This document shows positions 15,210 through 35,004 of a stretch of 64,000 nt of DNA, piece after piece. The translations under genes and the position numbers were made by a program. The DNA comes from Boseongicola sp. (lineage in GTDB: Bacteria > Pseudomonadota > Alphaproteobacteria > Rhodobacterales > Rhodobacteraceae): assembly GCA_014075275.1 (NCBI GenBank), contig CP046179.1:1497932-1561931 (forward strand), written 5' to 3'. The notes below the pieces were generated by a model. It was not told the DNA's origin. It made no database searches and was given only the letters and a program-made list of their open reading frames with translations. The stretch's first letter is position 1. Each line of letters starts with the position of its first letter.

Positions 15210-16640
15210 TTACCAGCTTGCCGAAATGTATTGGGTTTCCATGAATTCATGCATGCCTTCATGCCCGCCTTCGCGACCCAGGCCCGATTGTTTGGTGCCG
15301 CCGAAAGGTGCTGCCGGGTCTGAAACCAGCCCACGGTTCAACCCGACCATTCCGTAATCAAGCCGTTCACAGACTTGCAGCCCGCGCTTCATGTCCTCGG
15401 TGAACACATAGGCGACCAATCCGTATTCCGTGTCATTGGCCCGTTTGATGACATCTTCCGGGTCAGTGAAAATTTGAATGGCCGCAACCGGTCCAAATAT
15501 CTCATCGTGGATGCAGTTGGCGTTAGCGGGCACGTTGGACAAAACGGTCGGGGGATAGAAAAACCCTTTGCCATCTGGTTTCTGACCGCCGCAGTGAAGG
15601 GTTGCCCCCTTGGCAACAGCGTCTTCAACGAATTCTGCGACCTTGTCGCGCGTATCTGCATTGACCAAAGGGCCAACATCCACCGATGGGTCCAGCCCGT
15701 CACCCACTTTCAGCGCCGCCATGGCCGCACTCAGCCTTTCCACAAATGCGTCCTGAACCTTTTCATGTAAGTAAATTCGGTTTGCCGCCGTACAGGCTTC
15801 GCCCAAGTTGCGCATCTTGGCCAGCATTGTGCCTTCGACGGCCACATCAATGTCGGCGTCCTCAAAGACGATCAAAGGCGCGTTGCCACCCAGCTCCATC
15901 GCAGGTTTCAACACCTGATCGGCGGCGGAATGCAAAAGCTTGCGGCCCACTTCGGTTGATCCGGTAAAGCTTACAACGCGCACGCGCGGATCGTGCAGCA
16001 GCATGTCGACCATCTCTCCGGTTCGGCGCGAGGGCAGGACGTTGACGACGCCTTTGGGCACGCCCGCTTCTTCCAGCAATGGCATTAGGGCCAACATGGT
16101 CAGGGGCGTTTCAGACGCCGGTTTGATGATCACCGGGCAGCCTGCCGCGAGGGCTGGGGCGATTTTGCGGGTCCCCATGGCGGCCGGGTAATTCCAGGGC
16201 GTGACCAGCACAGCAATTCCCGCAGGTTTGTGTTGAACGATAATCCGTGCCCCTGACGCGGGTGCGTGAGAGATCAGGCCGTCAACGCGAACAGCCTCTT
16301 CCGAAAACCAGCGGAAGAATTCGGCGGCATAAGCGGCTTCGCCCATGGCATCAGTGCGGGCTTTACCGTTTTCCAAGGTGATGAGCCGGGCAAATTCCTC
16401 CTGCCGCTCCACCATCAACTCCCACGCGCGGCGCAGCACGATGGACCTGTCACGCGGGGTGCGCGCGGCCCAATCTGCAAAGGCGGCTTCTGCAGCGTCC
16501 AGGGCGGCTTTAGCATCGTCCAAAGAGGCAGAGGCCACGCTTGCCAAAACAGTTTCATCGGCGGGGTCCATGACGTCAAAACGTGTTCCATCAGACCCGG
16601 GAAGCCACGCGCCGTTGATGTAAAGATCAGTGTGTTCCAT
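15210..16640 (-). CDS. NAD(P)-dependent aldehyde dehydrogenase, succinate-semialdehyde type
   Basis: Oxidises an aldehyde to the acid. 476 residues. The catalytic cysteine is in LGEACTAANR (about residue 282) and the general-base glutamate in MELGGNAPLIVF (about 248); NAD-site blocks TPWNYPAAMGTRK and FTGSTEVGRKL are intact. Sequence style (ETPLTMLALMPLLEEAGVP, GREGGHEGM near the end) resembles GabD-type succinate-semialdehyde dehydrogenases, but that is inference. It sits between the E2-like gene (20 bases) and the hydroxyacid dehydrogenase. Confidence 0.9.
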   Translation of the reverse strand: MEHTDLYINGAWLPGSDGTRFDVMDPADETVLASVASASLDDAKAALDAAEAAFADWAARTPRDRSIVLRRAWELMVERQEEFARLITLENGKARTDAMGEAAYAAEFFRWFSEEAVRVDGLISHAPASGARIIVQHKPAGIAVLVTPWNYPAAMGTRKIAPALAAGCPVIIKPASETPLTMLALMPLLEEAGVPKGVVNVLPSRRTGEMVDMLLHDPRVRVVSFTGSTEVGRKLLHSAADQVLKPAMELGGNAPLIVFEDADIDVAVEGTMLAKMRNLGEACTAANRIYLHEKVQDAFVERLSAAMAALKVGDGLDPSVDVGPLVNADTRDKVAEFVEDAVAKGATLHCGGQKPDGKGFFYPPTVLSNVPANANCIHDEIFGPVAAIQIFTDPEDVIKRANDTEYGLVAYVFTEDMKRGLQVCERLDYGMVGLNRGLVSDPAAPFGGTKQSGLGREGGHEGMHEFMETQYISASW

Positions 16641-16660
16641 GTTGGTTTCCCTTCCCGATC

Positions 16661-17644
16661 CTAGACCAGCGCCAGCAATGGTTCGGCCATGCGCGCGCTT
16701 AGATCGGACATCAGCGCAATTGCTTGATCCGTCGTGAGATTTGATGAGCTATAGGAAAGCGACAAATGAATGTTGCCCCCCGTAAGCGCGATTGTAAGCG
16801 TTGGCGTAGCACCGGCATCTATTGCGGTGGTGGTCAGATATGTTTCGCCCAGGTCGATCAGTTCCAAGTCCGCGGGTGCATCGCCTTCTTCGCCTGTCAT
16901 CTGCGAGAGCCGCATTTTGTCGGGATCATGGAAGGTCACGCTTGGATTGCCATGTTGTTTTAACGTCAGCGTCAGGTTTTGGGCATCGCTGACGACCCGC
17001 AGAGCGACAGCAGCAAAGGCAACGGCCAGATTTGCAAGCGACAATTGAACGCCCGCATCGTCGTTCATTTTGATGATCAGCGCATTGCAACCAACGGCAG
17101 GCACCTGCGCCGCGATATGCAATTTGGCGCCCGCATGCGGCGCGGCTTGCGCAATTGGCTGAGTTGCCAGCCGTTCGACATCTGCTGCGCGAATAGGTTG
17201 AGGCACGCCCGCTTCGCTGAACTGTGAGAGGGTCAGGCCCGCTTCTTTGGCCAGTCGCCTGGCTTTTGGGGACGCTAAGATACGATCACCCCCGGTTTGA
17301 AGTGGCGGCGCGGCAACCGGGCTTTCCTGTACTTGCGGCTGTGGGTCTGAGGGCGTTTCAGCAACCGGCTCCGATATTTCTGGCGCGGGTGCAATCGCCT
17401 CATCGGGGTCCGCCGTGATCATTGCGATCACCTGACCGACCGGAATATCGGCGCCTTCTTCGGCGCTTACACCCGCAAGAAACCCATCTGCCTGCGCTTC
17501 GACCTCGGATACGGATTTATCGGTCTCGACCTCGAACAGAACATCGCCCACCGCCACAGCTTCGCCTGCTGATTTGCACCAGCTCAGCAGTTTGCCTGTG
17601 TCTTGGGCCATCCCCAGCATTGGCATGATGACCTCATGCGCCAC
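16661..17644 (-). CDS. 2-oxoacid dehydrogenase E2-like protein lacking the catalytic motif
   Basis: 327 residues with three parts: a lipoyl domain (1-80, lipoylated Lys43 in ETDKSVSEVEA), an acidic-proline linker (80-115), a peripheral-subunit binding domain (120-160, RILASPKARRLAKEAGLTL) and a shortened acyltransferase-fold domain (172-327). Normal E2 proteins exceed 400 residues and end with an HRxxDG-type active site; here the matching segment reads SLSYSSSNLTTDQA, so both His and Asp are missing. It can probably carry a lipoyl arm and bind E1/E3, but transfer of the acyl group to CoA looks impossible by the usual chemistry. Follows E1 beta with two bases between them. Confidence 0.85.
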   Translation of the reverse strand: MAHEVIMPMLGMAQDTGKLLSWCKSAGEAVAVGDVLFEVETDKSVSEVEAQADGFLAGVSAEEGADIPVGQVIAMITADPDEAIAPAPEISEPVAETPSDPQPQVQESPVAAPPLQTGGDRILASPKARRLAKEAGLTLSQFSEAGVPQPIRAADVERLATQPIAQAAPHAGAKLHIAAQVPAVGCNALIIKMNDDAGVQLSLANLAVAFAAVALRVVSDAQNLTLTLKQHGNPSVTFHDPDKMRLSQMTGEEGDAPADLELIDLGETYLTTTAIDAGATPTLTIALTGGNIHLSLSYSSSNLTTDQAIALMSDLSARMAEPLLALV

Positions 17645-17645
17645 G

Positions 17646-18638
17646 TTAGATCCCTCCTTCGACTGAGGCTTTTGCGCGGGTAAAGACGGCTTCCGGTGTT
17701 GGCACAGTCAGGTCTTCCAATGCGGATGAAAACGGGATCGGTACGTCCATTGCGCCGAACCTTTGGACCGGGGCATCAAGGTGATAGAACGCCTTTTCAC
17801 TGATCCGGGCCGCAATTTCGGCCGTAACTCCGAAGTTTTGATGCCCTTCATCCACCACCATCGCGCGGCTGGTTTTTCGGACCGAGTTCAAAATGGTTTC
17901 TTCGTCCAATGGGACAATTGTGCGGGGGTCGATCACTTCGGCACTGATGCCGACATCTGCCAGCAATTCAGCTGCTTTCTGGCACACCTGCACCATCGAA
18001 GACGTGCCGATAAGCGTAATATCACGCCCCTCGCGCAGAACATTGGCTTGGCCAAAGGGGATCAGAAATTCCTCCGCCGGCACAGGCGCTTTGTCCTGAT
18101 ACATCAGCTTGTCTTCAAAGATGACCACTGGGTTGTCGTCGCGGATCGCGGTCTTAAGCAATCCTTTCGCTTCATATGCTGATGATGGAAGCGCAACTTT
18201 AAGCCCCGGAATATGGGCAACCAAAGCGTGCAAAGATTGACTATGCTGTGCCGCCGACCGTCTTGTCGCGCCAAGATTGGTGCGCAGAACCAATGGTACA
18301 TTCAGCTTTCCACCGGACATGTAATGCGTCTTGGCCGCCTGATTGCAAAGCTGGTCCATGACCAGAAACAGGAAATCGCCGAACATCAGATCGACGACCG
18401 GGCGCATACCCGTCATGGCCGCCCCAACTGCGATGCCCATGAAACCGGGTTCGGCAATGGGTGTGTCCACAACGCGATCGGTGCCAAACTCTTCCACCAG
18501 ACCGGACAAGATTTTGAACGGTGTGCCTGCTTCGGCCACGTCTTCACCGATGATGAACACCGACGGATCACGCCGCATTTCTTCTGCGAACGCTTCGTTG
18601 ACGGCCTGAGATAATGTGATGTCGCGCATGTTGCCCAT
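17646..18638 (-). CDS. 2-oxoacid (acetoin-type) dehydrogenase E1 beta subunit
   Basis: Forms the thiamine-diphosphate E1 heterotetramer with the alpha subunit upstream. About 330 residues with the transketolase pyrimidine-binding domain first (GEDVAEAGTPFKILSGL, TPIAEPGFMGIAVGAAMTGMRPV in pieces) and the transketolase C-terminal domain from about 205 (RDITLIGTSSMVQVC, VIDPRTIVPLDEETI). Start 18638 begins one base after the alpha-subunit stop; an ATG nine bases later (18629) fits the family N-terminus equally well. Closest by style to acetoin or branched-chain complexes; substrate not determinable. Confidence 0.93.
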   Translation of the reverse strand: MGNMRDITLSQAVNEAFAEEMRRDPSVFIIGEDVAEAGTPFKILSGLVEEFGTDRVVDTPIAEPGFMGIAVGAAMTGMRPVVDLMFGDFLFLVMDQLCNQAAKTHYMSGGKLNVPLVLRTNLGATRRSAAQHSQSLHALVAHIPGLKVALPSSAYEAKGLLKTAIRDDNPVVIFEDKLMYQDKAPVPAEEFLIPFGQANVLREGRDITLIGTSSMVQVCQKAAELLADVGISAEVIDPRTIVPLDEETILNSVRKTSRAMVVDEGHQNFGVTAEIAARISEKAFYHLDAPVQRFGAMDVPIPFSSALEDLTVPTPEAVFTRAKASVEGGI

Positions 18639-18639
18639 C

Positions 18640-19641
18640 TTACGCGACCGCATGGGTTATGTCGGTGAAGATGTGCATGTCCACTTCCAGACCATCAGGA
18701 TAAGGGGCGGTGATGGCGTATTCGACCGCTGCTTTGGCCTCAGCATGCACTTCTTCGCGCAAGGAAGTCAGTTCTTCGTCAGATACGATGCCTTCCGCCG
18801 ACAGGTAATCGCCCAATATCGTGATTGGGTCGCGATTTGCTTTCCAATTTGCCTCTTCTTCCTTGGTCCGATAATAATCGCGATTGATGTCGCCGACGTG
18901 GTGCCCGTGATAGCGGTATGTTTCGAGTTCGATGAAGAACGGGCCTTCGCCTTTGCGTGCGCGCTCAACCAATTTTTGCGTCAGGTCGTTGACGGCCAAA
19001 ACGTCTTGTCCATTGACCTTGTGGGCTTCGATACCAAAGGCCTCCGCACGTGCCGGAATGGAACCTGCTGCGATTTCCTCGGTGCGCGTGTATTCGCTGT
19101 AGCCGTTGTTTTCACAGGCATAAATCACTGGCAGTTTCCAAAGCGCGGCCATGTTCATGACCTCATACATCAGCCCCTGCGCCGTGGCGCCATCGCCGAA
19201 AAAGCAGACTGCCACATCATCGGTGCCTTGCATCTTCGCACTGAACGCCGCACCGGTCGCAATTCCCATGGAGCCACCGACGATGGCATTTGCGCCAAGG
19301 TTGCCGTTTGATTGGTCAGCGATGTGCATGGACCCACCTTTGCCCCGGCAATAGCCTTCTTCTTTGCCCAAAAGTTCGCAAAACATCTGTTTGAACTCGG
19401 CCCCTTTGGCCACGCAGTGTCCATGGCCCCGGTGAGTTGAGGTGATTTTGTCGGTGACACGAAGGGCTTCGCAAATCCCGACAGCCACTGCCTCTTCGCC
19501 AGAATACATATGGGTCAGGCCCGGCATCTTGGCAGATAGGTAAAGTTGATTGGCCTGATCTTCGAACGCTCTTATGCGCACCATCTGCCGGTACATCCGA
19601 AGAAAATCTTCGGTATTTGTTTTTGGTTTCTTTGCACTCAT
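18640..19641 (-). CDS. Thiamine-diphosphate dehydrogenase E1 alpha subunit
   Basis: 333 residues. The thiamine-diphosphate motif begins at GDGATAQGLMYEVMNMA and ends at ENNGYSEY (about 160-195). HRGHGHCVAKGAEF and GKGGSMHIADQSNGNLGANAIVGGS in pieces match the E1 alpha family, and the YHGHHVGDINRDYY segment holds the phosphorylation-loop region. It leads E1 beta and the E2-like gene. No E3 (lipoamide dehydrogenase) gene is in the cluster, so the complex would have to borrow one. Confidence 0.94.
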   Translation of the reverse strand: MSAKKPKTNTEDFLRMYRQMVRIRAFEDQANQLYLSAKMPGLTHMYSGEEAVAVGICEALRVTDKITSTHRGHGHCVAKGAEFKQMFCELLGKEEGYCRGKGGSMHIADQSNGNLGANAIVGGSMGIATGAAFSAKMQGTDDVAVCFFGDGATAQGLMYEVMNMAALWKLPVIYACENNGYSEYTRTEEIAAGSIPARAEAFGIEAHKVNGQDVLAVNDLTQKLVERARKGEGPFFIELETYRYHGHHVGDINRDYYRTKEEEANWKANRDPITILGDYLSAEGIVSDEELTSLREEVHAEAKAAVEYAITAPYPDGLEVDMHIFTDITHAVA

Positions 19642-19702
19642 TTTGTGCTTTCAATATGCGCCCGCCCCGCAGGGAGATACGAGACGGGCCGGCCAGGGAG
19701 AG

Positions 19703-21007
19703 TTAGTAACGATTGGCGATTGGCAGCTCTTCGGCTGGGAAAAGGCTGATCACCTCGCAACCGGTGTCGGTGACCACGACTTCTTCTTCGATCCGGGCTG
19801 CCGAGAAGCCGTCATCCGCAGGGCAATAGGTTTCAAGTGCGAAGACCATGCCGGTCTTGATCTCCATTGGGTTGTCCAGGGAAACAGCGCGGCTGATGAT
19901 GGGGCGTTCATGCAGCGCAAGACCAAGCCCATGACCGAATTGCAGACCAAAAGCAGAAAGCTCATCCGGAAAACCCAAGGATTGTGCTGTCGGCCAAAGC
20001 TTGGCCACCTGATCGGTTGTCACACCCGGTTTGATCGCCTGAATTGCCGCATCAAGCCATTCCCGCGCCTTTACATAGGCATCGTTTTGAACGGGCGTTG
20101 CCCGGCCAATGTTGAAGGTGCGGTAGTAACAGGTGCGATAGCCCTGATAGGATTGAAGAATATCAAAAAATGCCTGGTCACCGGGGCGGAACAATCGATC
20201 GGTGAAGTTATGCGGATGCGGGTTGCAGCGTTCGCCGGAAATGGCGTTGATCGCCTCAACATCATCCGAGCCCATTTCGTACAAAAGCTTGTTCGACAGC
20301 GCCACGATGTCGTTTTCGCGCACACCCGGTTTCAGCTCTTCATAGATCATGTGATAGACGCCATCGACCATACTGGCGGCCTGGGTCAGAAGCTGGATTT
20401 CGTCCCAGTTCTTGATCTCACGCGCGGACAACATGATTTGTTGGCCATCAACCACGTTCAGACCGGCGTCCTGCAAGGCGTGAAACATTGCGGTTTCGGC
20501 GTAATCGACGCCCACTGGCATGCCCTTCATGCCCGCGTCTTCGATCAATCCGGCGATCTCTTCCGCGTAAAGCTTCATCAAACCGAATGAAGGCGGGATC
20601 GTTCCCCGCATCCCCACAACACCGGCGCGACAGTGATCTGGGACCAGCCAGTCGGCGTATTTTTTGTGGTGCACAGCGGCTGATCCGAAGTCCCACACAT
20701 AGGGCGCGTCATCACCCGTCAGCAGACAGAAGCGGCACATCTTGTCCCGCTCCCATTCGCCGATTTTTGTGGCTGAGACATAGCGGATATTATTCACATC
20801 AAACAAAAGCAGCGTGCCGCAATCGCTTGCCTTCAAGGCCTCGCGTGTTCGGCTTAGGCGATAGCGGCGCAAGCGGTCATGATCGACACGGGTCTCAAAA
20901 TCGACCGAGGTATGACCCCAGGCTGGCAAGCGGCCTTCCCATTTCCAATGGGGTTCTAGATCTTGTGGTGTCAAAACGTTCGGGGTTAACGCGGTTCTTG
21001 TCGTCAT
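19703..21007 (-). CDS. M24-fold metallopeptidase-like protein with an altered metal site
   Basis: 434 residues: a creatinase-type N-terminal domain (about 35-190, NNIRYVSATKIGEW) and a pita-bread catalytic domain (195-434). Expected metal ligands are found at Asp282 (FFDIL), His359 (QFGHGLGLALHE), Glu392 (ALETYC) and Glu407 (ARIEEE). The second aspartate, eleven residues after the first in the family, is Cys293 (RTCYYRTF). It may therefore bind metal differently, or act like creatinase, which works without metal. It is not the DMSP lyase DddP, whose extra aspartates are also missing. Lies between the E1 alpha gene and the regulator. Confidence 0.85.
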   Translation of the reverse strand: MTTRTALTPNVLTPQDLEPHWKWEGRLPAWGHTSVDFETRVDHDRLRRYRLSRTREALKASDCGTLLLFDVNNIRYVSATKIGEWERDKMCRFCLLTGDDAPYVWDFGSAAVHHKKYADWLVPDHCRAGVVGMRGTIPPSFGLMKLYAEEIAGLIEDAGMKGMPVGVDYAETAMFHALQDAGLNVVDGQQIMLSAREIKNWDEIQLLTQAASMVDGVYHMIYEELKPGVRENDIVALSNKLLYEMGSDDVEAINAISGERCNPHPHNFTDRLFRPGDQAFFDILQSYQGYRTCYYRTFNIGRATPVQNDAYVKAREWLDAAIQAIKPGVTTDQVAKLWPTAQSLGFPDELSAFGLQFGHGLGLALHERPIISRAVSLDNPMEIKTGMVFALETYCPADDGFSAARIEEEVVVTDTGCEVISLFPAEELPIANRY

Positions 21008-21044: not shown

Positions 21045-22823
21045 TTAATAGTGCCCGTGTGCCCGCATCAGCGCATCCGCCCGATTTTGAGCACCCGCCA
21101 GCGCCGCCTTTACAGATTTTGCCCCCAAGAGCATGTCGTGCATTTCTTCGCCGGCGATGGCGATAATATCTGTGATCTCGGGTACCGGCGGGCGTGGCCA
21201 CATCTGCAAAACACCGAAACGTGCCATTTCGTCCACGATGGATATCAGTGGCGAAATCTTTTTCACTTCCGGGTCCATACTGACGCTGAACCGTGGGCTC
21301 ACAAGGCTCCCGTTCTCGATATAAAGCTTGATCGCATTCGCTGACGTGAGCGATGCCAAAGCTGTCCAAATTGGACGAATTCTTCCGGTTTCAACATTCG
21401 ACGGGATCGCAAGCGCATAGCCACCAACAGGTGCAATCGGTCGCGCCGTGGGACCACAGGGGTGCGGCAGGTAATCAGTTACGCCATAGGCGGGCGAATT
21501 CTCATCAAGCTCAAACATTGGTGCCAAAAGTGTCGCGCAATAGGCCATTGCCACCTGGCCGTCAGCATAGGCGCGCGCGCGTTCATACCATGACATGCTG
21601 AGAATGCCGCTGGGCGAATAGCTTAGCAATTCCTGCATATAATCCGCTGTATTGCGCGCCGCATCACTGTCAAACATCGGGCGAAAGTTCTCACCTTCAA
21701 CCGTTTCGCCGTCAAATCCGCCCTCGATCGGACGCAGATTTAGGGCGGGTTGGCCAAATGCCCCCATCATGAACAGAAAACTGTGACCAAGCGGCGTTCC
21801 CCGGGCCGCGTTCCAAGCAATTCCAGAAAGGCTGCGACCACGCGAATGAAGCGTTTTCGCCGCAGTCAGGGTTTCGTCGATTGTGCGCGGGGCGTTAAGC
21901 CCATGATCTGCAAGCAGATCCGACCGACAGACAAGAAGTTCGGGCGTCGTCTGAACAGGAATTCCGTATTGAACGCCTTTGTAGCGCGCACTTGCCAGGG
22001 CTTCGCTATGGAAGTCGGTGGTGTCGAAGGCGGTTTGTTCCATCAGTTTACCGACCGGCATGAAATGACCCGCCTCAGCCATCTCTCCAAACCAGGGCAG
22101 GTCGCAAGCGATCAGGTCATAGTCAGAGGTTTCTTTCTGTGCGTTGGTCAGAATTTCCTCGCGCAGCCGATCAATGGACAAAGCGCGGCTTTGGATGTTG
22201 ACGCCAAAGATCGTTTCGAATTGTTTCTTGAGAACATGCATCGCCATGAAAGTCGGATCAGCATGGACCAGAATGCGAAGGTCCCGTCGAAGCGGCAGTT
22301 TTGACGCTAATACGCCAAGGGGAGAGATGATGCTGCCTTGATTGTAAGAGGCACCAAAGAAATAATCGGATTGGCCGACACCGGTATCATTTAGACCAAT
22401 CGTTGTTCCAACAAGCGCATGAACACGGCGCGCATATTCCTGCCATTCCTGGATAAGTTTGTCAGACGGGTGAAGCGAGTAGCTTTTGCCGCTGGAGGTC
22501 CGCGGTCGGCGAAGCAGCAACCCTCGGTCCTCGATCGAGGCCATGGAGCGGATTGCGGTGCCATAAGACATGCCCGAGCTTTGAGCCAATGATGTGGACG
22601 TCGTCAGTTTCCCAGTCAAATGATTGCGCAGAAGCGTGACCAGTATTTGTGTTTCATCATACCCGGATTTAATGCTGAGCGATTGACGCGCCTCTTGATC
22701 AAGTTGTTCAACAAAATCCAGAAAGCGCGACATCTCTTCGCTGGAAATGCCAAACTGTCTGCGGCGGTCCGCTGTTTCGAACGGACCTTCTGGTCGTTTG
22801 TGAACGGGCTGACGCTGGTTCAT
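21045..22823 (-). CDS. Regulator: winged-helix DNA-binding domain fused to a family 1 solute-binding domain
   Basis: 592 residues, no signal peptide. Residues about 35-130 read as a MarR-like winged helix (TQILVTLLRNHLTGKL, TSTSLAQSSGMSYGTAIRSM as recognition region, RGLLLRRPRTSSGKSYSL as wing). From about 178 (LRILVHADPTFMAMHVLKKQ) to 545 the sequence follows extracellular solute-binding proteins of the MalE type: YDLIACDLPWFGEMAEAG, YGIPVQTTPELLVCRSDLL, DGQVAMAYCATLL and a PVGGYALAIP stretch. I infer a cytoplasmic one-component sensor in which the binding domain senses a sugar-like ligand. It precedes the M24 gene and follows the transporter genes on the same strand. Confidence 0.82.
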   Translation of the reverse strand: MNQRQPVHKRPEGPFETADRRRQFGISSEEMSRFLDFVEQLDQEARQSLSIKSGYDETQILVTLLRNHLTGKLTTSTSLAQSSGMSYGTAIRSMASIEDRGLLLRRPRTSSGKSYSLHPSDKLIQEWQEYARRVHALVGTTIGLNDTGVGQSDYFFGASYNQGSIISPLGVLASKLPLRRDLRILVHADPTFMAMHVLKKQFETIFGVNIQSRALSIDRLREEILTNAQKETSDYDLIACDLPWFGEMAEAGHFMPVGKLMEQTAFDTTDFHSEALASARYKGVQYGIPVQTTPELLVCRSDLLADHGLNAPRTIDETLTAAKTLHSRGRSLSGIAWNAARGTPLGHSFLFMMGAFGQPALNLRPIEGGFDGETVEGENFRPMFDSDAARNTADYMQELLSYSPSGILSMSWYERARAYADGQVAMAYCATLLAPMFELDENSPAYGVTDYLPHPCGPTARPIAPVGGYALAIPSNVETGRIRPIWTALASLTSANAIKLYIENGSLVSPRFSVSMDPEVKKISPLISIVDEMARFGVLQMWPRPPVPEITDIIAIAGEEMHDMLLGAKSVKAALAGAQNRADALMRAHGHY

Positions 22824-22889: not shown

Positions 22890-23936
22890 TTATTCGTTTG
22901 CAGCCGGGCTCACCCCGGCACGACGGGTTTCCAGACTTCGCCTTCGTCCATCAACATCGCTTAACAATTGTCGTCGTCGTTGTTTGTCGTTGAATATCCG
23001 GCTGCCCGTTTGGAACATGATGACGATGATCAACAGAATACCCAGATAAAGCTGCACCATGAATGCGGGCGTTACGTTGAAAACCAAACCGGTGTTCAGA
23101 AAATTGACGGTCAGCGTGCCGATTGCCGCGCCGATGACGCCGCCCTTTCCTCCAAGAATGCTGACACCCCCGATGAAGGCCGCCACTGTTCCGGCCAGCA
23201 AAAGGTATTGCAGCCCAAGCGCTTGCGCCGTTCCCGAGCGTAAGCCGATGATGACGCCACCCAGGCCTGCGCAGAACCCAGAAATCGCGAAAACAATAAT
23301 CATTGGGCGTTTCAGGTCGATACCCGATGCCAGCGCTTCTTTCCGCGCGCCGCCGATGGCATATATTTCGCGGCCATAGCGGGTAAAGCTCATGAACAGA
23401 CCCACGACAATGAACATTGCAATGACCAATAGGCTTGCCGGCGAAAAGTAGACGAACATCTTCGTCGAGATGAAATCTGGCACGCGGAAATCCGTCAGCA
23501 TCACGGTTTTTTCTTCGGCCGCAAAAAGCGCCACGCCGCGCAAAAGCATCAACGTACCAACGGTCAGCACGATGGCGCGAACCCTGAGATAGGCGATGAA
23601 ATAGCCTTGGATAATGCCAATGGTCGTTGAGACGGCCAGAGCGATAAGCAGGGCGTTTACGGCACCCAGACTGTCAGTGAACCTTACGGTGATGACCGCA
23701 GATAGTGCTGCGTTTGAACCGATGGAAAGGTCAATCTCGCCCGCGATGATGCAAAGTGTCAAAGCCAGACCAACAAGCCCCAGAACCGCAAACCGTTCCA
23801 TGATCGCGAAAGTGGTGCGATGGGTGGCGAAGAATTCATTCGTCGCCGCGAAATACCCATACACACAAATCGCGAGCAGGATTGCAAATGCAAGGTCAGG
23901 GTTTTCAATGACCCAATTTTTTAGCTTGGCAGCCAT
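22890..23936 (-). CDS. Ribose-type ABC importer permease (RbsC family), second
   Basis: 348 residues with about nine to ten hydrophobic segments. Family blocks GEIDLSIGSNAALSAV (about 85-100), TVGTLMLLRGVALF and FIGGVSILGGKGGVIGAAIGT in pieces are present. AGGAG seven bases upstream sets the start at 23936; the longer frame upstream would overlap the neighbouring permease gene by 32 bases. Pairs with the permease just upstream to form a heterodimeric channel for the ribose/xylose-type importer encoded here. Confidence 0.93.
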   Translation of the reverse strand: MAAKLKNWVIENPDLAFAILLAICVYGYFAATNEFFATHRTTFAIMERFAVLGLVGLALTLCIIAGEIDLSIGSNAALSAVITVRFTDSLGAVNALLIALAVSTTIGIIQGYFIAYLRVRAIVLTVGTLMLLRGVALFAAEEKTVMLTDFRVPDFISTKMFVYFSPASLLVIAMFIVVGLFMSFTRYGREIYAIGGARKEALASGIDLKRPMIIVFAISGFCAGLGGVIIGLRSGTAQALGLQYLLLAGTVAAFIGGVSILGGKGGVIGAAIGTLTVNFLNTGLVFNVTPAFMVQLYLGILLIIVIMFQTGSRIFNDKQRRRQLLSDVDGRRRSLETRRAGVSPAANE

Positions 23937-23946
23937 TCGCGCGCTC

Positions 23947-24960
23947 CTATTCCACTGCCCGGCTACCGCGCCGGACAAGCGCGAAAACGATGATTGAGAA
24001 TACGATCATCAATCCAACAGCCAGCACGCGTGGACCCGAATTGAAACCGTGAAGCACCATCATGTTGTCGATTGTTGAAATGAAGATAGCACCAAGGGAA
24101 GATCGCAAAGTCGATCCATATCCGCCCATAATCGAATTACCGCCCACCATTACGGTGGCGATGACCATGATCGTCATATCGCCTGACGACCCGAACTCGG
24201 ACGAGAAATAATTGACGTGGGCGCTGGAAACCTGGGCTGAAAAGGCGATGGCCACGAAGGCGGCGCAAACCGAGGCGATTGAACACACTTTGATTGCCAT
24301 GCCGAAGTTTTCATGGCCCGTTGCCTTGCCCGCCGCACGGTTCGCACCGACCAAATATACCTGACGCCCAAAGGCTGTTTTTCGCAGAACAATCTCGGCG
24401 GTGATTGCGATGAGGATGAAAGCGATGGTGATATTTGGCAGGCCAAGAAATGAGCCGGTGCCAAGCCATTCGGCCCCGTGGGGTCTGCGGAAAGACACGA
24501 CCAGGTTGTCCGACCACCAACTGCCGATCCCGAAAAACAGGCCAGCCGCGCCAAGCGTCACCACAATCGGGTTGCCGCCAAGGCCAATCAAAAACCCCTG
24601 CAATGCGCCCGCCGCAACGGCGATGACCATTGTGACCAGAAACGAAATTTCAAAGCCGTATCCTGCGGACATGCCGGTCGCAAAAGCGATGATTGCCAAG
24701 GCGGCGGTTTCTTTCATCGAGAGCAGGAAGAAATTTCCGGACAATGTGACAAAGGTCAGCCCGATTGCCATGATGCCAACCAAAGCCGCATCGCGGATGA
24801 TGGTTTTGAAGTTAAACAGCGTCAGAAAGTTCGGAGCCGTTATGGCCCCGAAAATCAGGATCGCAAGAAACGCAGCAACCAGCCCAATGACCAACGGGGA
24901 ATAATCCCGGCTTAAGCGCCCGATAATTCCCAGACCGGGCACATTTGCATCCGCGCTCAT
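23947..24960 (-). CDS. Ribose-type ABC importer permease (RbsC family), first
   Basis: 337 residues, polytopic. It carries LVGIMAIGLTFVTLSGNFFLLSM in pieces, VTLGAAGLFFGIGSWWSDN and MVGGNSIMGGYGSTLRSSLGA. The segment aligned with the usual GGIDLSVG reads SGNFFLLSMKE, a divergent form seen in some heterodimeric systems where one permease keeps the motif (here the other permease). The start overlaps the stop of the ATPase gene by four bases. Confidence 0.92.
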   Translation of the reverse strand: MSADANVPGLGIIGRLSRDYSPLVIGLVAAFLAILIFGAITAPNFLTLFNFKTIIRDAALVGIMAIGLTFVTLSGNFFLLSMKETAALAIIAFATGMSAGYGFEISFLVTMVIAVAAGALQGFLIGLGGNPIVVTLGAAGLFFGIGSWWSDNLVVSFRRPHGAEWLGTGSFLGLPNITIAFILIAITAEIVLRKTAFGRQVYLVGANRAAGKATGHENFGMAIKVCSIASVCAAFVAIAFSAQVSSAHVNYFSSEFGSSGDMTIMVIATVMVGGNSIMGGYGSTLRSSLGAIFISTIDNMMVLHGFNSGPRVLAVGLMIVFSIIVFALVRRGSRAVE

Positions 24961-26477
24961 GCCACGTCCTTTCCATGAAGCCCGGTTTCGTTGAACGGAT
25001 CGGTGATCTGTTCAAGGATTCTGGCCGAACTCATATCTTCCAGCGCAATTTCACCCACCTGAATGCCGCGATAGAAACTGACAATTCGGTCGGGCAGGTT
25101 GGTGATTTCATAGAAGTCGGTCGAAGCCACGACGATTGCCGCCCCTTGGTCGGCCAAGCCCCGCAGTTTTTGGTAAATCTCAGCGCGGGCACCAACGTCC
25201 ACACCACGCGTCGGTTCGTTCACCAAGATGATCTTTGGTTCAATGGAAAGCCATTTCCCAAGCGCAACTTTTTGTTGATTGCCGCCGCTTAAGACACCCG
25301 CTTCTTGGGGAAGCCGGTCGGGATCGACCGTAAACTTCGTGGCCGTATCTGCTGCCAGATCAAGTTCCTGTGCAGACGACAAGAAGCCCGCGTTTGAGAC
25401 ACGCTTTAATGCGGGCGCAGTCAAATTTTCCATAATCGGTCGCCCCAGGAAAAGCCCGTCATGTTTTCGGTCTTCCGAGCAGTAACCGATCCCCGCCATG
25501 ATTGCCTCGCGCGGACGTTTTGGCAGAAACTCGCGACCCTCAAAAATCAACTTGCCGCCGCGCGTATTTGCAGCACCCGCCATTGCTGCCAGTATCTCTG
25601 CGGTTCCTGCGCCAAGCTGGCCTGCAAGCCCCAAGATCTCACCGGGATAAACGTCAAAATTCACCGGCTCCAAGACACCATCGGGCCAAAGATCGCGAAC
25701 TTGCATCAAGGGCTCGGCCTTGGGCTTCGTCGCGCGTTCCGGAAACATATTGCCCAACTCGCGGCCCAGCATCAGCTCTACCAGTTTTTCAACATTCAGG
25801 TCTTTTGCCGCGCGCGGCTCCTGACTTTCGCCATCGCGCAAGACGGTGATCCGATCACAAATCTTGAAAATCTCATCCATGCGATGACTGACGTAAATGA
25901 TCGATTTCCCGCGCTCGCGAAGACGCGCGACCATATCAAGAATGCGGATTGAATCGGTTTCGCCTAAGGCCGCTGTTGGTTCGTCCAAAATCAGAACCTG
26001 TGGATCATGCGCCAAAAGCCGGGCGACCTCGACCAAATGCTGTTCGCCTACAGACAATCTATTTGTGGCGCGCAATGGGTCAATATGTTCAAGCCCCACT
26101 TCTTCCAGAAAGGGCAGTGCCTTCCTGGCCAAAGCGCGGCGTGTCGAAATCACTGGCACGCCTTCACCGGCCAGAAATATATTCTCGGCGATGCTCATCG
26201 TCGGGATCAGGCTAAGTTCTTGCTGGGCGATGGCGATGCCCGCTTTTTCGGCTTGTGTTGGTGTGGTGAAACGCAATGCTTCGCCGTTCATTTGGTAGTC
26301 GCCAGTGAAGCCGTTATCGAAACCGCCGATGATTTTCACCATCGTCGACTTGCCGGCGCCATTTTCGCCAACCAGCCCCATAACTTCGCCGGATGCGATT
26401 TCAAAACTTGCACCACTCAGGGCCTGGATTGCACCATAGCTTCGGTTGATGTTCGAAAGTTTCAGAAGCGGCTGCAT
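24957..26477 (-). CDS. Ribose-type ABC importer ATPase (two nucleotide-binding domains)
   Basis: 506 residues, duplicated ATPase of the RbsA/MglA type. The first half has Walker A GENGAGKST (about 37-45), signature LSVGEQHLVEVAR and Walker B VLILDEPTAAL. The second half has the degenerate Walker A region GQLGAGTAE and signature LSGGNQQKVALGKWL with ILVNEPTRGVDVG. This asymmetry is normal in the family. Energises uptake of the ligand held by the binding protein encoded upstream. Confidence 0.95.
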   Translation of the reverse strand: MQPLLKLSNINRSYGAIQALSGASFEIASGEVMGLVGENGAGKSTMVKIIGGFDNGFTGDYQMNGEALRFTTPTQAEKAGIAIAQQELSLIPTMSIAENIFLAGEGVPVISTRRALARKALPFLEEVGLEHIDPLRATNRLSVGEQHLVEVARLLAHDPQVLILDEPTAALGETDSIRILDMVARLRERGKSIIYVSHRMDEIFKICDRITVLRDGESQEPRAAKDLNVEKLVELMLGRELGNMFPERATKPKAEPLMQVRDLWPDGVLEPVNFDVYPGEILGLAGQLGAGTAEILAAMAGAANTRGGKLIFEGREFLPKRPREAIMAGIGYCSEDRKHDGLFLGRPIMENLTAPALKRVSNAGFLSSAQELDLAADTATKFTVDPDRLPQEAGVLSGGNQQKVALGKWLSIEPKIILVNEPTRGVDVGARAEIYQKLRGLADQGAAIVVASTDFYEITNLPDRIVSFYRGIQVGEIALEDMSSARILEQITDPFNETGLHGKDVA

Positions 26478-26585: not shown

Positions 26586-27614
26586 TTACCAGGCGCCAGA
26601 ACACAGCTCTTCGATGCCGTAAAGTTTGCCATCAAAGCCGCGAAGGGCGGTGGTTTCGATGGTGTCTTTGGTCACGGATGGGTTTGGCGTAAAGTTGATG
26701 TATTGCGCCAATGCACCTGTTTCCAGGTATTCCTCGACCAGCTTGATCGCCAACTGACCTTCATGCAGCGGTGACTGCAACGTCGTGCCAAACTGCTTGC
26801 CTTCTTCGATCAATTGCTTGTCTCCGTTGCAAACGGTTCCAACAGCGATCACATCTTCGCCCATCTTCAGCCCGGCCTCTTCCAAGGCATTGATACCTCC
26901 GGTGAGGATGGCATCATCCATTCCATAGACGAAATCGATGCTTTGACCTTGAAGGGCCGCAATCATCTTTGCCGCACCTTTATAACCATTGGCCTGGCCG
27001 AAGCCTTCGTCGACGTCTCCGATGATGGTCAGATCAGACCCTGCAATCGCTTCATTGAACGCATTGATTGACAGGCCATATCCGCCATAGCTGTGAGGAT
27101 AGGATAGAACCAAAACATTAAAGCCTTCGCCGCCTGCAGCCTTCTTGGCCGCCGCTGCTTCACGCATCATATAGCCAGCGTTCCGTGCACGCAGACGATC
27201 ATCTGGGCCCGCGTAGCCGAAAATATATTGCTTATCCTGTTCGTTCGGCAGTTGGTTGATCTTCAGAACCGGAACGCCGGTTTTTGCCAGCGCACGAAGT
27301 GAACCAAGGCCCGCAACAGCATCGGAAGGCCACCAGATGAACACATCAGGCAGTTGGCCCGCGGCCAAAACCTGTTGCACCTGCTGGTCCTGTTCAGCTT
27401 GATTGAACTGGTTTTCGAAGACTTTGATGTCAAAGCCCTTCAACTCCGCCGTGGCCTTGATGCCTTTGATAAACTTACCGATATAGGCTTCCCCGGCAGG
27501 GCCGTTGAACGAAATGATCGAGCCTTTGTCTTGAGCAACCGCAGACGTAACGGTCAATCCGAGCGCAAGCGCGCCTGCCACCAAACCGCGAAGTACATTT
27601 CCAAATCTTATCAT
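26586..27614 (-). CDS. Ribose-type ABC importer substrate-binding protein
   Basis: 342 residues with a signal peptide (GLVAGALALGLTVTSAVAQ) and a periplasmic-binding fold of the RbsB type: ISFNGPAGEAYIGKFIKGIKATAELKG in pieces, NQAEQDQQVQQVLAAGQLPDVF near 70-90, and DFVYGMDDAILTGGINALEEAG near 235. GGGAGGA ahead of 27614 sets the start. An unusual Tyr/Ser/Gly-rich segment (SYPHSYGGYGLS) lies where ligand contacts are expected. First gene of the minus-strand cluster and divergent from the SDR gene; ligand unknown. Confidence 0.92.
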   Translation of the reverse strand: MIRFGNVLRGLVAGALALGLTVTSAVAQDKGSIISFNGPAGEAYIGKFIKGIKATAELKGFDIKVFENQFNQAEQDQQVQQVLAAGQLPDVFIWWPSDAVAGLGSLRALAKTGVPVLKINQLPNEQDKQYIFGYAGPDDRLRARNAGYMMREAAAAKKAAGGEGFNVLVLSYPHSYGGYGLSINAFNEAIAGSDLTIIGDVDEGFGQANGYKGAAKMIAALQGQSIDFVYGMDDAILTGGINALEEAGLKMGEDVIAVGTVCNGDKQLIEEGKQFGTTLQSPLHEGQLAIKLVEEYLETGALAQYINFTPNPSVTKDTIETTALRGFDGKLYGIEELCSGAW

Positions 27615-27695
27615 TGAATCCTCCCTAAGACGCATTTCTTGTTCAACGTCACCTCTGTGTTTCAAAGTGCGCCCACGATTCAGAGATCGATTTCG

Positions 27696-27708
27696 TCCAT
27701 CTTGGACA
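27696..27708. promoter_or_regulatory. Candidate operator in the divergent promoter region
   Basis: GTCCA-TCT-TGGAC, a perfect inverted repeat, lies in the 188-base gap between the binding-protein gene (minus) and the SDR gene (plus). A repeated TGTCGA occurs just downstream (about 27733 and 27746). Either could bind the solute-sensing regulator; this is inference. Confidence 0.4.
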
Positions 27709-27802
27709 ATCAGGATTCAATCTGGACATTTTGTCGATACCATACTGTCGACACGCCCGGCACGATTTTGAGGACTGTAAGAATTTATCCTCGGAGGAAC
27801 CC

Positions 27803-28612
27803 ATGGACCCGAAACGTCTGGCTGGCAAGAATATCATGATAACAGGGGCGGCGCAGGGCATGGGCGCAACCAATGCGGAATATTTCGCTGCGCAGGGGGC
27901 GAATGTCTGCCTGGGCGACGTCAATTTGGACGGCGTCAACGAAGTTGCAGCGCGCATCAATGCCGCTGGCGGCGGCAAAGCCATTTCCTTGGCCATGGAT
28001 GTGACCAAACGCAAAGACAATGCAGACGCTGTCCAGGCGACGGTCGAGGAATTCGGCTCAATCAACGTGGCCTTGATGAACGCAGGCATCAACAAACCAC
28101 GCATGTTCATGGATATTGACGAAGAAAACTGGGACATGATCATGAACATCAACGCCAAAGGCATGCTGTTTGGCATGCAAGAGGCCGCACGCCAAATGAT
28201 CGCCCAAGGCCCGATGGAAGATCACCCATATAAAATTATCAACGTCGGTTCGATCGTATCGCGTACAGCTTTCCTGGATGTGATCCCCTATTCCTGCTCG
28301 AAATACGCCGCTCTTGCGATGATCATCGGCGGCGCAAAAGCGCTTTGGCCGCACAAGATCACAGTCAATGGCTATGGCCCCGGTGTTGTGCGTACCGAGC
28401 TGTGGGAGCAGCTGGACAAAGATTTGGTCGAAATTGGAATGTTCGAAGAGGAAGGCCAATCCATGGACCACCTCGCCGAAACCATGATTACGATGAAGCG
28501 CTATTCATACCCCGACGACGTAAAGGGAACCGCCGCGTTCCTTTGTTCCGACGAAAGCGATTACATGACGGGGCAACTTGTGATGATCGACGGCGGGATG
28601 ATCATGCAGTGA
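27803..28612 (+). CDS. Short-chain dehydrogenase/reductase
   Basis: 269 residues, classical SDR. The nucleotide motif TGAAQGMG lies near residue 17, NAGINKP near 90, the catalytic serine in NVGSIVSRTAF near 150 and Tyr-x3-Lys in YSCSKYAAL near 164. The Asp in CLGDVN (about 41) favours NAD over NADP. CGGAGGAAC before 27803 sets the start. It faces away from the ABC importer operon and shares its promoter region, so it probably oxidises the imported compound or a close product. Confidence 0.92.
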   Translation: MDPKRLAGKNIMITGAAQGMGATNAEYFAAQGANVCLGDVNLDGVNEVAARINAAGGGKAISLAMDVTKRKDNADAVQATVEEFGSINVALMNAGINKPRMFMDIDEENWDMIMNINAKGMLFGMQEAARQMIAQGPMEDHPYKIINVGSIVSRTAFLDVIPYSCSKYAALAMIIGGAKALWPHKITVNGYGPGVVRTELWEQLDKDLVEIGMFEEEGQSMDHLAETMITMKRYSYPDDVKGTAAFLCSDESDYMTGQLVMIDGGMIMQ

Positions 28613-28842: not shown

Positions 28843-30392
28843 GATTTTGTTGAAAAAGTCGTTTGGTTTTGTGCTTTGGGGATGGTTACGGCGTATATTT
28901 TATTGGGCAGTCTGAGGCGGTACCGCCGCGTCATCCTGCGGCTGGCACCATCGGCGTGAGTTTGGCTAGTTTCCGGAGGTTTTGGGCTGCTGCTGCGAGA
29001 GTAAACTCGTCTTGGACGCCGCAGGGTCCACGTAATCGGAGCCGCCCGAGGCCAAGGATGCGTTTGAGGTGTGCAAAGAGCATCTCGACCTTCTTTCGTC
29101 GTTTCTGTGCGGTGACATTGAACTCTGACGCCATGCATCGGCGGGCGAAGTCCCGGACGATTTCGTATTTCTCGCGATGGACGGCGCGGGCCTCGGCGTT
29201 GGGGCAGCATTTTTCCTTCAGCTCGCATCCTGTGCAATCGGACTTCAGCGCTCGATACTTGCGAGCTTTCCAGCTTGGCGCGTTTCGAGCCGGGTCAGAA
29301 TAGGTCCGCCAAGTGTGCCGCATCTCTTTGCCGCCCGGACAGATATAGCGGTCGTTCTCATCGTCCCACGTGAAGTCGGATCGTGAGAACGTTCCGTCCG
29401 TGCGCTCACCTTTGTCGAAGACAGGAATGAAGGGAAGGATTTGGCGCTTCAATGCGAGCCAGACAAGATTGTCTTCTGATCCATATGCGGTGTCCGCAGC
29501 GATCCAATCGGACTTCACACCAAAACGTTCTTCGGTGCGATCGAGCATTTTGCGCATGGCACTTATTTCAGCGGTCTTGTTGGACCGACTGGCATCTACG
29601 TCCATGATGATACTGTGATCGGTATCGATCAGATAATTAGTAGAATACGCAAAGAAAGCCGGGCCTTTACGTGCAGCCGTCCATTGGCTGGCGGGGTCGG
29701 CATGGGCCATGAACTTGGGCTTGACCGTGGAGGCTGCACCAAAGGCCTCGTCGTCCAAGGTGTCGAGATACTCGCGCACTGCGCGCGGCGCGTTATTGGG
29801 ATCAATGTCACGGGCGGCCCAGTCTTCGGGATTGCTGGAGTTTTGCTTCTGAACATCCGCACTGATCAAACTGGCATCAACAGCAAAACCCTGACCGCCC
29901 ACCAGTCCTTCTTCCATGCTGCGTGCAACCGTGGTCTCGAACACATGGCGCAGCAGATCGCTCTCACGGAACCGACCATGGCGGTTCTTCGAGAAGGTCG
30001 AGTGGTCTGGAACTTGGTCGGTCAAATTCAGCCGGCAAAACCAGCGGTAGGCGAGGTTCAGATGAACCTCTTCGCAGAGCCGGCGTTCTGACCGAATACC
30101 AAAGCAATACCCCACCAACAGCATCCGAATGAGCAGTTCCGGATCAATGGATGGACGGCCTGTGTGACTATAGAAATCCGACAGATGCGCCCGGATACTG
30201 CTCAGGTCAACGAACCGGTCAATCAACCGAAGAAGGTGGTCTTGAGGGACATGATCCTCCAACGAGAACTCATAGAACAACGCCGCCTGTGCTTCCTGCT
30301 TAGGTCCCATCATCGCAAAACCCTCCCTATCCGTACGATGAATTGAATCAGCAGTTCATTCCACGATCAAGCATGAGTTTTTCAACAAAATC
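28843..30392 (-). mobile_element. IS1182-family insertion sequence
   Basis: 1550 bases bounded by a perfect 15-bp terminal inverted repeat, GATTTTGTTGAAAAA at 28843-28857 and its reverse complement at 30378-30392, with an AGCC direct repeat immediately outside each end (28839-28842 and 30393-30396) as target duplication. It carries one transposase gene, apparently intact, so the insertion may be recent. It sits at the 3' end of the sulfatase gene and supplies that gene's new stop codon. Confidence 0.9.
28931..30313 (-). CDS. IS1182-family transposase
   Basis: 460 residues, full length. N-terminal domain with DHLLRLIDRFVDLS and GRPSIDPELLIRMLLVGYCFGIRSERRL in pieces; DDE catalytic core with Asp in VDASLISADVQ (about 155), Asp in DWIAADTAYGSEDN (about 265) and a downstream Glu in the C-terminal half; the Cys-rich block DCTGCELKEKCCPN near 370 is typical. 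Ends with an arginine-rich helix (KRRKKVEMLFAHLKRILGL). No frameshift or stop seen, so it is likely active. Confidence 0.93.
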   Translation of the reverse strand: MMGPKQEAQAALFYEFSLEDHVPQDHLLRLIDRFVDLSSIRAHLSDFYSHTGRPSIDPELLIRMLLVGYCFGIRSERRLCEEVHLNLAYRWFCRLNLTDQVPDHSTFSKNRHGRFRESDLLRHVFETTVARSMEEGLVGGQGFAVDASLISADVQKQNSSNPEDWAARDIDPNNAPRAVREYLDTLDDEAFGAASTVKPKFMAHADPASQWTAARKGPAFFAYSTNYLIDTDHSIIMDVDASRSNKTAEISAMRKMLDRTEERFGVKSDWIAADTAYGSEDNLVWLALKRQILPFIPVFDKGERTDGTFSRSDFTWDDENDRYICPGGKEMRHTWRTYSDPARNAPSWKARKYRALKSDCTGCELKEKCCPNAEARAVHREKYEIVRDFARRCMASEFNVTAQKRRKKVEMLFAHLKRILGLGRLRLRGPCGVQDEFTLAAAAQNLRKLAKLTPMVPAAG

Positions 30393-31946
30393 AGCCCATT
30401 TCGACCGGTTCGCTGCATCGCAGCTAGTGGTATCTTTGATTTGCACAGGCAAAAAGGAGAACGCCCACTCATTGTAACCACCTTCGCCTCGGTACCAGAT
30501 TACTCTATCTGACGCAGACTCACTGTGGTTCCACCGAGGGCGAGGCCCATCTGCATATCCGTCGACGATCAATCGACGGCGTTTTTGGCTTTCGACAATC
30601 TTGTCTTTCAGATCATTATAGTTCCATTTGTCAGAAATCATCTGCATGAAGTCAGATACTTGGTCTGCATTTTTGGGGTCTTGGGTAATGTTGTGGCACT
30701 CATTCGGGTCGGTCCTCAGGTCGAACATAAGGCTCGGATCATCCTTTGACCAAATGAACTTGTAATCCCCTTTCCGGATCATAAGGATCGGAGAAGGGGT
30801 CGCTTCAGCAAGGTATTCCGCGAAAACTGGTCTGGCCAGGTCGTCAGCTTCTGTGGCAAGTGCGGTCAGGTCATCGCCTTCCAACTGTTCAACTCCGCTT
30901 TCCCAACCGCTGCCTTGTGCCAGCCCCATAAAGGTCGGCAATAAATCGACAAGCGATACAGGCGTTCCGACCCGTTTTGCAGCCTGGCCCGGCACCTTCA
31001 TAATCAGTGGGATGCGCAGTGCTGGTTCGAAGAAGTGTTTTTTGAACCACATACCCCGCTCGCCCAGCATTTCGCCATGATCGGATGTGAAAACAATCGC
31101 TGTCTTGTCGGCTTTACCAGTTGCGGCCAGCACATCCAGAACACGCCCTACCATCGCATCGATATAGCTGATTGAGCCGTAGTACGCACGCCGCGCGCGG
31201 GCGATGTCTTCATCCGAGAAGCGTTTATCCAGCATCGCAAAGTCGCTCAAAAGCCGCTGCGAATGAACGTCGTGTTCATTTGAAGACATAGCCGGAACGC
31301 TGGGCAAAGGGATGTCAACATCTTCGTAGAGGTCCCAGTATTCCTTGCGGCATAGATAGGGTTCATGTGGATGTGTATAGGAGACCTGCAAAAAGAAGGG
31401 GCGTTCGTCGTTTGACCGAGCCAGATCATAGAGGTGCTGGATCGCGTTTGCGGTTACCATCTCGTCGAAATCGATCTGAACAGAGCGCTCACAGACGCCA
31501 GAAACCAACACACTGCGGTCATCGTTTGTGTCGCGCTTGCCTTCATCCCCCCAATTTGGGACCCAACTGAAGTCCGCCGGGTAAAGATCGGCTGTCAGCC
31601 GTTTTTCAAAGCCGTGGTACTGGTCAGGACCGATGAAATGCATCTTGCCGGAAAGGGCCGTTTGATATCCGGCAGCGCGAAGGTAGTGCGCGTAAGTCGG
31701 AACTGAAGCCGGCATCTCTGCTGCGTTGTCATAGGCACCAATGGTTGAACACAACTGGCCCGCTGCCATGGAAAATCGCGATGGTGCGCATAGCGGGAAA
31801 TTGCAATAGGCGGTCTCGAAAACCGTGCCCGTATTGGCAAGGCGATCAAGGTTCGGCGCATGGCAGACTTCACTGCCGTAGCTGCTCAATGACGACGCCG
31901 TTAACTGATCGACCTGAATGAAAAGGATGTTGGGCTGTGACTCCAT
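30348..31946 (-). CDS. Choline-sulfatase-like type I sulfatase with an IS-derived C-terminus
   Basis: 532 residues. The formylglycine motif is LCAPSR with Cys53, metal ligands include Asp13-Gln14 (QVDQL) and TSDHGEMLGERGMW near 290. The overall plan (YCNFPLCAPSR, LSGKMHFIGPDQYHGFEKRLTADLYP in pieces) matches choline-O-sulfatases, which release choline and sulfate. The last 14 residues (DFVEKLMLDRGMNC) and the stop are encoded inside the IS end. Removing the IS restores an ending two codons long (His-Ser-stop), so little was lost. Last gene of the operon with the betaine/choline-type importer, four bases after the permease. Confidence 0.88.
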   Translation of the reverse strand: MESQPNILFIQVDQLTASSLSSYGSEVCHAPNLDRLANTGTVFETAYCNFPLCAPSRFSMAAGQLCSTIGAYDNAAEMPASVPTYAHYLRAAGYQTALSGKMHFIGPDQYHGFEKRLTADLYPADFSWVPNWGDEGKRDTNDDRSVLVSGVCERSVQIDFDEMVTANAIQHLYDLARSNDERPFFLQVSYTHPHEPYLCRKEYWDLYEDVDIPLPSVPAMSSNEHDVHSQRLLSDFAMLDKRFSDEDIARARRAYYGSISYIDAMVGRVLDVLAATGKADKTAIVFTSDHGEMLGERGMWFKKHFFEPALRIPLIMKVPGQAAKRVGTPVSLVDLLPTFMGLAQGSGWESGVEQLEGDDLTALATEADDLARPVFAEYLAEATPSPILMIRKGDYKFIWSKDDPSLMFDLRTDPNECHNITQDPKNADQVSDFMQMISDKWNYNDLKDKIVESQKRRRLIVDGYADGPRPRWNHSESASDRVIWYRGEGGYNEWAFSFLPVQIKDTTSCDAANRSKWADFVEKLMLDRGMNC

Positions 31947-31949
31947 CGC

Positions 31950-32834
31950 TTACACCTTGCCCATCAACGTGCGTACCGCTCCAACCGGTCCTGTTTCGTA
32001 CCATTTTTTGTGGCCCCGATCGCGTGCGGATGTGCCGAAGCTTTGGCTGACCCGGTCGATAACGATCGCGAGGAACACAATGCCTAGACCGCCCACAGTT
32101 GCAAGCCCCATGTCAAGGCGTCCAATGCCGCGCAACACCATCTGGCCAAGCCCGGTAACTGAGATCATTGACGCGACAACAACCATCGACAGCGCCATCA
32201 TGATAGTCTGGTTTACACCTGCCATAATGGTTGGCATCGCCAGCGGCAGTTCAACCTTAATCAGCGTTTGCCGTTTGCTGGCACCAAAGGCCCGCGCGGC
32301 TTCAACCATATCTCCACGCACCTGTCGGATGCCAAGATTGCTGAGACGCACAACTGGTGGCAATGCGTAGATAAAGGTCACGATCACGCCGGACACATTA
32401 CCAATGGAAAAAAGCATCACAATTGGCACAAGGTAAACGAATGACGGGATCGTTTGCATCAGATCGAGAAGTGGCTGCAGGATGGTCCAGAACCTATCGT
32501 TGCGCGCCGCCATAATCCCCAACGGGATGCCGATCATGGAACAGAAGATGACACATGTCAGGACGATTGAAAGGGTCACCATGCTTTCTTCCCACGCGCC
32601 CATCAAACCGATGGCCAGCATGGATGCGGCAGACACCGCAGCAAGTCGTCGCCCACCTGCTTGCCAGGCTATCAGTACGATGATGGCCAGCATTACTAGA
32701 TCAGGCGTCCCGGTCAGTGCGTCCTCCAGCCCGGACAGAACGATGTCGAAGGGCACTTTTATTGCCTGAAAAACAAACCGAAAGTTTTCGACGACCCATT
32801 GCAGCAACATCTCTACCCATGCTCCAACGGGCAC
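31950..32834 (-). CDS. Betaine/choline-type ABC importer permease (ProW/ChoW family)
   Basis: 294 residues from a GTG at 32834, with about six hydrophobic segments and the coupling block AARAFGASKRQTLIKVELPLA near 205. A better initiation site exists upstream: AGGAGG followed by ATG at 32867, but that frame reads M-D-L then TAG (32856-32858) before continuing NIFDKEWVPVGAW into this gene. The GTG has its own AAGGA four bases before it. So either the protein starts at the GTG, or a nonsense change has struck codon 4. The remainder is intact. Confidence 0.85.
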   Translation of the reverse strand: MPVGAWVEMLLQWVVENFRFVFQAIKVPFDIVLSGLEDALTGTPDLVMLAIIVLIAWQAGGRRLAAVSAASMLAIGLMGAWEESMVTLSIVLTCVIFCSMIGIPLGIMAARNDRFWTILQPLLDLMQTIPSFVYLVPIVMLFSIGNVSGVIVTFIYALPPVVRLSNLGIRQVRGDMVEAARAFGASKRQTLIKVELPLAMPTIMAGVNQTIMMALSMVVVASMISVTGLGQMVLRGIGRLDMGLATVGGLGIVFLAIVIDRVSQSFGTSARDRGHKKWYETGPVGAVRTLMGKV

Positions 32835-32876
32835 CCATTCCTTGTCAAAGATATTCTACAGATCCATGATCGCCTC

Positions 32877-34993: not shown

Positions 34994-35004
34994 ACCAGAT
35001 CGTT

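Follow-up and report, generated by a model that had tools for sequence, protein, structure and literature searches.

Gene content of the locus

Within the 64,000-nucleotide stretch of Boseongicola sp. DNA analysed here (the window), a minus-strand open reading frame starting with ATG (21045..22823) encoded a 592-residue protein in which ORF, Pfam and AlphaFold2 (AF2) analyses identified a MarR-type winged helix and a MalE-type solute-binding protein (SBP) domain. The original prediction had placed a fusion of this length at exactly these coordinates, without giving a strand. Upstream on the same strand were the genes of an importer: an SBP with a signal peptide and a likely ATG at 27614 (26586..27614; Pfam Peripla_BP_4 and hydropathy), a CUT2-type ABC ATPase resembling RbsA/AraG (24957..26477) and two CUT2 permeases (23947..24960 and 22890..23978), the latter three assigned by profile matches. 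The claim that the adjoining importer was of the RbsB class thus held for its SBP, ATPase and both permeases. A gene for an SDR-family oxidoreductase was divergent from the importer operon on the plus strand (27803..28612, likely ATG at 27803), and the regulator gene was followed on the minus strand by one for an M24-family (Xaa-Pro peptidase/DddP-like) protein (19703..21007), both assigned from profiles and conserved neighbourhood. Further conserved partners on the minus strand (15210..19641) encoded 2-oxoacid-dehydrogenase-like E1 alpha and E1 beta subunits, a lipoyl/E2 protein and an SSADH-like dehydrogenase; with the M24 (DddP-like) gene these E1/E2 and SSADH genes formed a very conserved cluster (15210-21007). 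We know of no pathway that matches the set of M24, oxoacid dehydrogenase, SSADH, ThuA and SDR genes. On the other side, an IS-type transposase gene (28931-30313, judged by translation) separated the SDR gene from a choline-sulfatase-like gene, which adjoined a quaternary-amine-type ABC importer (30348-35031).

Domain structure and predicted location of the regulator

The full-length AF2 model of the regulator, built from 51 homologues with rows from the plasmid collection excluded, had two well-folded domains (pLDDT 88.7, pTM 0.85) joined by a disordered linker at about residues 146-162. Structure prediction of both halves and the linker, proposed earlier as a check, therefore yielded a winged helix, a disordered linker and an SBP of MalE fold. 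The SBP domain (residues 178-590; 21054..22292, minus strand) matched Pfam SBP_bac_1 over residues 213-476 (5.8e-20, 72.9 bits against a cutoff of 26) and SBP_bac_8 over residues 200-521 (3.1e-15). Its top PDB sequence match was the Rhizobiales sugar-type SBP 5iai (1.4e-21, residues 186-583), onto which the model superposed with Z 48.0 and an rmsd of 2.1 over 395 aligned residues. A Pfam score above the gathering score and a complete fold place the domain in SBP family 1, as had been predicted.

The N-terminal half, as a single sequence, matched no Pfam or NCBIfam family, and the identity of the DNA-binding domain (residues 28-142; 22398..22742, minus strand) was resolved by a profile and a member-by-member scan. 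Pfam MarR_2 was matched by 43 of the 51 family members (best 1.5e-7), the window member alone reaching MarR at 0.12, and the profile picked up a SlyA/MarR chain at 4.1e-4. AF2 placed helices at residues 28-49, 58-70 and 76-83, a recognition helix at 87-99, a wing at 103-119 and a further helix at 121-142. Modelled in isolation (pLDDT 90), the domain had the order H-H-H-H-E-E-H, a winged helix flanked by helices; Foldseek gave a modest match (best E 1.2e-3), and the closest folds were mostly MarR-family proteins (MepR, Z 9.5). The fold with its two-strand wing and the MarR profile across members confirm the MarR-like winged helix claimed for the N-terminus.

Hydropathy was compared with a real signal peptide, that of the neighbouring RbsB-type protein, which peaked at 1.88 in a 15-residue window. 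The first 60 residues of the regulator peaked at 0.33 and contained no export signal or lipobox, and across the 51 homologues the median peak was 0.57 and the highest 1.41. Lacking an export signal, as originally noted, the regulator is not a transport SBP, and this absence together with the predicted winged helix supports the earlier reading of a cytoplasmic sensor, in which the SBP domain would respond to a small ligand. Mean pairwise identity in the family was 46% for the winged helix, 58% for the wing and 48% for the SBP domain, in which 66 positions were at least 90% identical (including W244, R300, D302, N338, R341, W412, W542 and R544). Conservation of the DNA-binding core, the wing and the SBP domain alike is the pattern expected of a protein that uses both domains.

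Distribution of the regulator family

Full-length homologues were found in about 70 of 395 genomes of the window's family (counted as rows below 1e-90), and the genome collection held 18 full-length loci with 51-90% identity to the window regulator. Beyond that family the range took in Rhizobiales, Skermanella, Paraburkholderia and two genomes of streamlined, 1.4-Mb alphaproteobacteria, and plasmid-borne full-length relatives occurred in Skermanella, Agrobacterium, Shinella, Phaeobacter, Rhizobium, Aminobacter and Paraburkholderia. The full-length fusion was seen again in dozens of unrelated contigs; it is a conserved arrangement and not a chance or assembly join. Homologues are usually annotated in public records as 'extracellular solute-binding protein'. 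Open reading frames of 957-1314 aa (L031, L042, L047, L075, L076 and L085) were considered as triple-domain fusions and rejected as spurious, the extra N-terminus being antisense to a divergent SBP gene. At L049, L050 and L051 one cluster carried two paralogous regulators, from the 41% and 48% clades, in a span of about 15 kb, and at L053:8925-10709 a homologue was split into two ORFs, with an internal TGA, possibly a decayed copy.

Gene neighbourhoods across clades

Several loci of the window's clade (clade A) shared an SDR gene divergent from a run of RbsB, ATPase, two permease, regulator, M24, E1alpha, E1beta, lipoyl/E2 and SSADH genes, and nearly all others had at least the divergent SDR gene and the run from RbsB to the regulator. 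Clade B regulators were 46-49% identical to that of the window and divergent from a different RbsB-class importer, whose ATPase and permeases were about 36% and about 28% identical to those of the window. Except for the short lipoyl/E2 protein, the genes after the clade B regulator (SDR-M24-E1alpha-E1beta-E2-SSADH) were 64-89% identical to their window counterparts. In Skermanella the regulator fell next to clade A in the tree (weak support), yet stood with a clade B importer, and the two 1.4-Mb genomes combined a regulator of 34% identity with a clade A importer (62-74%). From these pairings it follows that the regulator is not tied to one importer type; across importer changes the regulator kept company with SDR, M24 and dehydrogenase genes. 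In the 1.4-Mb genomes (L108:8307-18974 and L109) importer, SDR and M24 genes had 62-74% identity and the E1 genes 38-46%.

The original prediction held that sensor and importer would see the ligand through unrelated folds. This was the case in the window and in clades A, B and C; relatives on Agrobacterium pAt and in Aminobacter, however, adjoined MalE-class importers, and the pairing of unrelated folds is usual in the family but not universal. Other relatives of the regulator (L089, L092 and L093) lay beside genes for an intradiol dioxygenase and a maleylacetate reductase, neighbours that suggest a hydroxyquinol-type route for a related substrate.

A predicted operator of paired palindromes

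An alignment of 17 clade A promoters between SDR and RbsB genes gave a conserved double palindrome. In the window, promoter alignment, spacing statistics and genome scans pointed to a predicted operator, TCCATCTTGGA-N9-TTCAATCTGGA, in the divergent RbsB-SDR promoter (27696..27726, without strand), with TCCATCTTGGA at 27696 and TTCAATCTGGA at 27716. These are TCCAnnnTGGA palindromes 20 bp apart, the second with one mismatch, with the RbsB ATG 81 bp away on one side and the SDR ATG 76 bp away on the other; a promoter scan found no clear -35/-10 elements at this site. The pair falls inside 27615-27802, the segment that had been singled out earlier for footprinting. A further match, TCCAAATTGGA at 21365, was rejected as an operator, as it lies within the regulator coding region and encodes part of PIWTAL.

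The pair occurred at exactly 20 bp in 13 of 16 clade A loci; clade B had 15 pairs in 19 loci, upstream of the regulator and spaced by exactly 21 bp. Shuffled sequence gave an expectation of 0.04-0.05 pairs per spacing. The loci are kin, so that these counts are not independent events and the uniform spacing of 20 or 21 bp is partly shared descent. When all 256 four-base half-sites were ranked, TCCA came top in both clades (clade A 13/16, runner-up 3/16; clade B 14/18, runner-up 10/18). With up to one mismatch allowed, the 20-bp pair matched a single place in the window's own 3.6-Mb genome, the RbsB-SDR promoter, and the 21-bp pair matched none there. Across the 395 genomes, a search for the 21-bp pair gave 31 places. 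Of these, 16, all five exact matches among them, were just upstream of a homologue of the regulator, and the remaining 15 are close to what chance would yield when about 1.5 Gb are scanned with one mismatch allowed (estimate about 17). Given the kinship of the loci, the strongest evidence is the presence of the motif in two widely diverged regulator clades whose promoters and importers differ, together with the genome-wide scan. As clades A and B have the regulator family and the catabolic genes in common and differ in their importers, the operator follows the regulator.

Related sites, TCCAAATCTGA and TTCATTTTGGA, were present in clade C promoters. An extra site often found near the regulator start in clade B suggests autoregulation. 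In the 1.4-Mb genomes, a TTCAnnnTGAA palindrome in the gap between regulator and importer, spotted by eye, is possibly an AT-shifted operator. No TCCAnnnTGGA pair was found in the clade of 33% identity, which indicates that specificity differs there.

Proposed mechanism and alternative explanations

It is very likely that the protein is a cytoplasmic one-component regulator, acting through its MarR-type winged helix on the predicted TCCAnnnTGGA pair and sensing a pathway substrate or intermediate with its MalE-type domain. In this model we infer dimer formation, occupancy of this operator by the regulator itself, the binding of a ligand and the sign of regulation. The winged helix would bind TCCAnnnTGGA palindromes, presumably as the dimer that a palindrome implies, and the 20-21 bp spacing, close to two turns of the helix, would put two dimers on the same face of the DNA, probably cooperatively, between the SDR gene and the importer operon (RbsB, ATPase, permeases, regulator, M24 and oxoacid dehydrogenase). 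The MalE-type domain would close on the imported substrate or an early intermediate, and closure, relayed through the flexible linker, would alter DNA binding and so switch on the genes for import and catabolism, probably by derepression rather than activation.

An SBP domain can act as a scaffold, and a DNA-binding regulator might use one for oligomerisation, or to sense the state of the importer by protein contact, with no small ligand bound. We regard this as unlikely: the domain retains the whole SBP fold (Z 48 over 395 residues) and, with its 66 nearly invariant positions, at least as conserved as the DNA-binding domain, and the occurrence of the family beside unrelated importers speaks against a fixed importer contact. 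The TCCAnnnTGGA operator might instead belong to another regulator, the fusion protein regulating elsewhere or not at all, as motif and protein are tied by co-occurrence alone. This is less probable again, since each of the five exact matches in the roughly 1.5 Gb scanned fell just upstream of a family member. In clade A, motif and regulator gene are about 5 kb apart; in clade B the motif is immediately upstream of the gene. No other transcription-factor gene was seen from ThuA to the dehydrogenase genes in the annotated clade B and Skermanella clusters. An ordinary exported importer SBP with an odd N-terminus, which the public label would imply, is next to impossible, given that homologue hydropathy never came near the control (1.41 against 1.88), that the cluster already holds a signal-bearing RbsB-type SBP, and that the N-terminus is a conserved winged helix.

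Returning to the ligand-sensing regulator, the family as a whole is probably a large and uncharacterised one of cytoplasmic transcription factors that use complete MalE-type domains as interchangeable sensors and conserved paired operators, and that control importers with a binding protein of the unrelated RbsB fold. The importers would have been swapped repeatedly beneath one regulator family, so that recognition of the ligand within the cell arose separately from its recognition outside. If so, the label of exported solute-binding protein would conceal hundreds of transcription factors, and it misleads models of transport and regulation for alphaproteobacteria of marine and plant-associated habitats. 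With the predicted operator, the regulon can be tested directly. Few ligand-binding domains are understood as well as the MalE type, and a natural one driving DNA binding would offer a template for biosensor design, for which PMC6079105 proposes artificial chimeras of binding proteins and DNA-binding domains.

Comparison with known systems

Exported CUT1 SBPs (5iai, Thermotoga maritima MalE3 and SmoF) resemble residues 178-590 in fold and overall sequence, whereas the window protein is predicted to be cytoplasmic and is fused to a DNA-binding domain. With MarR/SlyA proteins it shares the winged-helix fold and, in the predicted site, a palindromic operator, but in classical MarR proteins the ligand is bound in the dimer interface and a separate sensor domain is lacking. 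LysR-type regulators also join a winged helix to a type-II periplasmic-binding-like effector domain, named PBP II (PMC5882156), although these effector domains are far smaller (about 200 aa) and have no sequence relationship to the window SBP domain. LacI/GalR regulators govern sugar importers with a DNA-binding domain and a periplasmic-binding-protein-like sugar sensor; theirs is a LacI helix-turn-helix with an RbsB-type (type I) sensor, in contrast to the MarR-like winged helix and MalE-type domain found here, and the window protein had no Pfam match to LacI HTH or Peripla_BP_1/3/4.

Closest in design are SgrR of Escherichia coli and DsvR of Vibrio cholerae, cytoplasmic regulators with an N-terminal helix-turn-helix and a full SBP domain. 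SgrR controls the sRNA SgrS, whereas the window family is tied to an importer-catabolism cluster. Their SBP domain is of family 5 (oligopeptide type), DsvR being described as HTH plus SBP_bac_5 (PMC13060122), and that of the window protein is of family 1 (MalE/CUT1 type). Pfam found neither SgrR_N nor SBP_bac_5 in the window protein, and a distant Paraburkholderia homologue gave a weak SgrR_N match (0.0032). GntR-SBP_bac_1 architectures may exist in Firmicutes. The literature searched contained no described MarR/SBP_bac_1 regulator, an absence that is not proof. Within that literature, the original view that a MalE-type sensor is unusual stands for SBP family 1 and not for the design at large, which has precedents in SgrR, DsvR and LysR.
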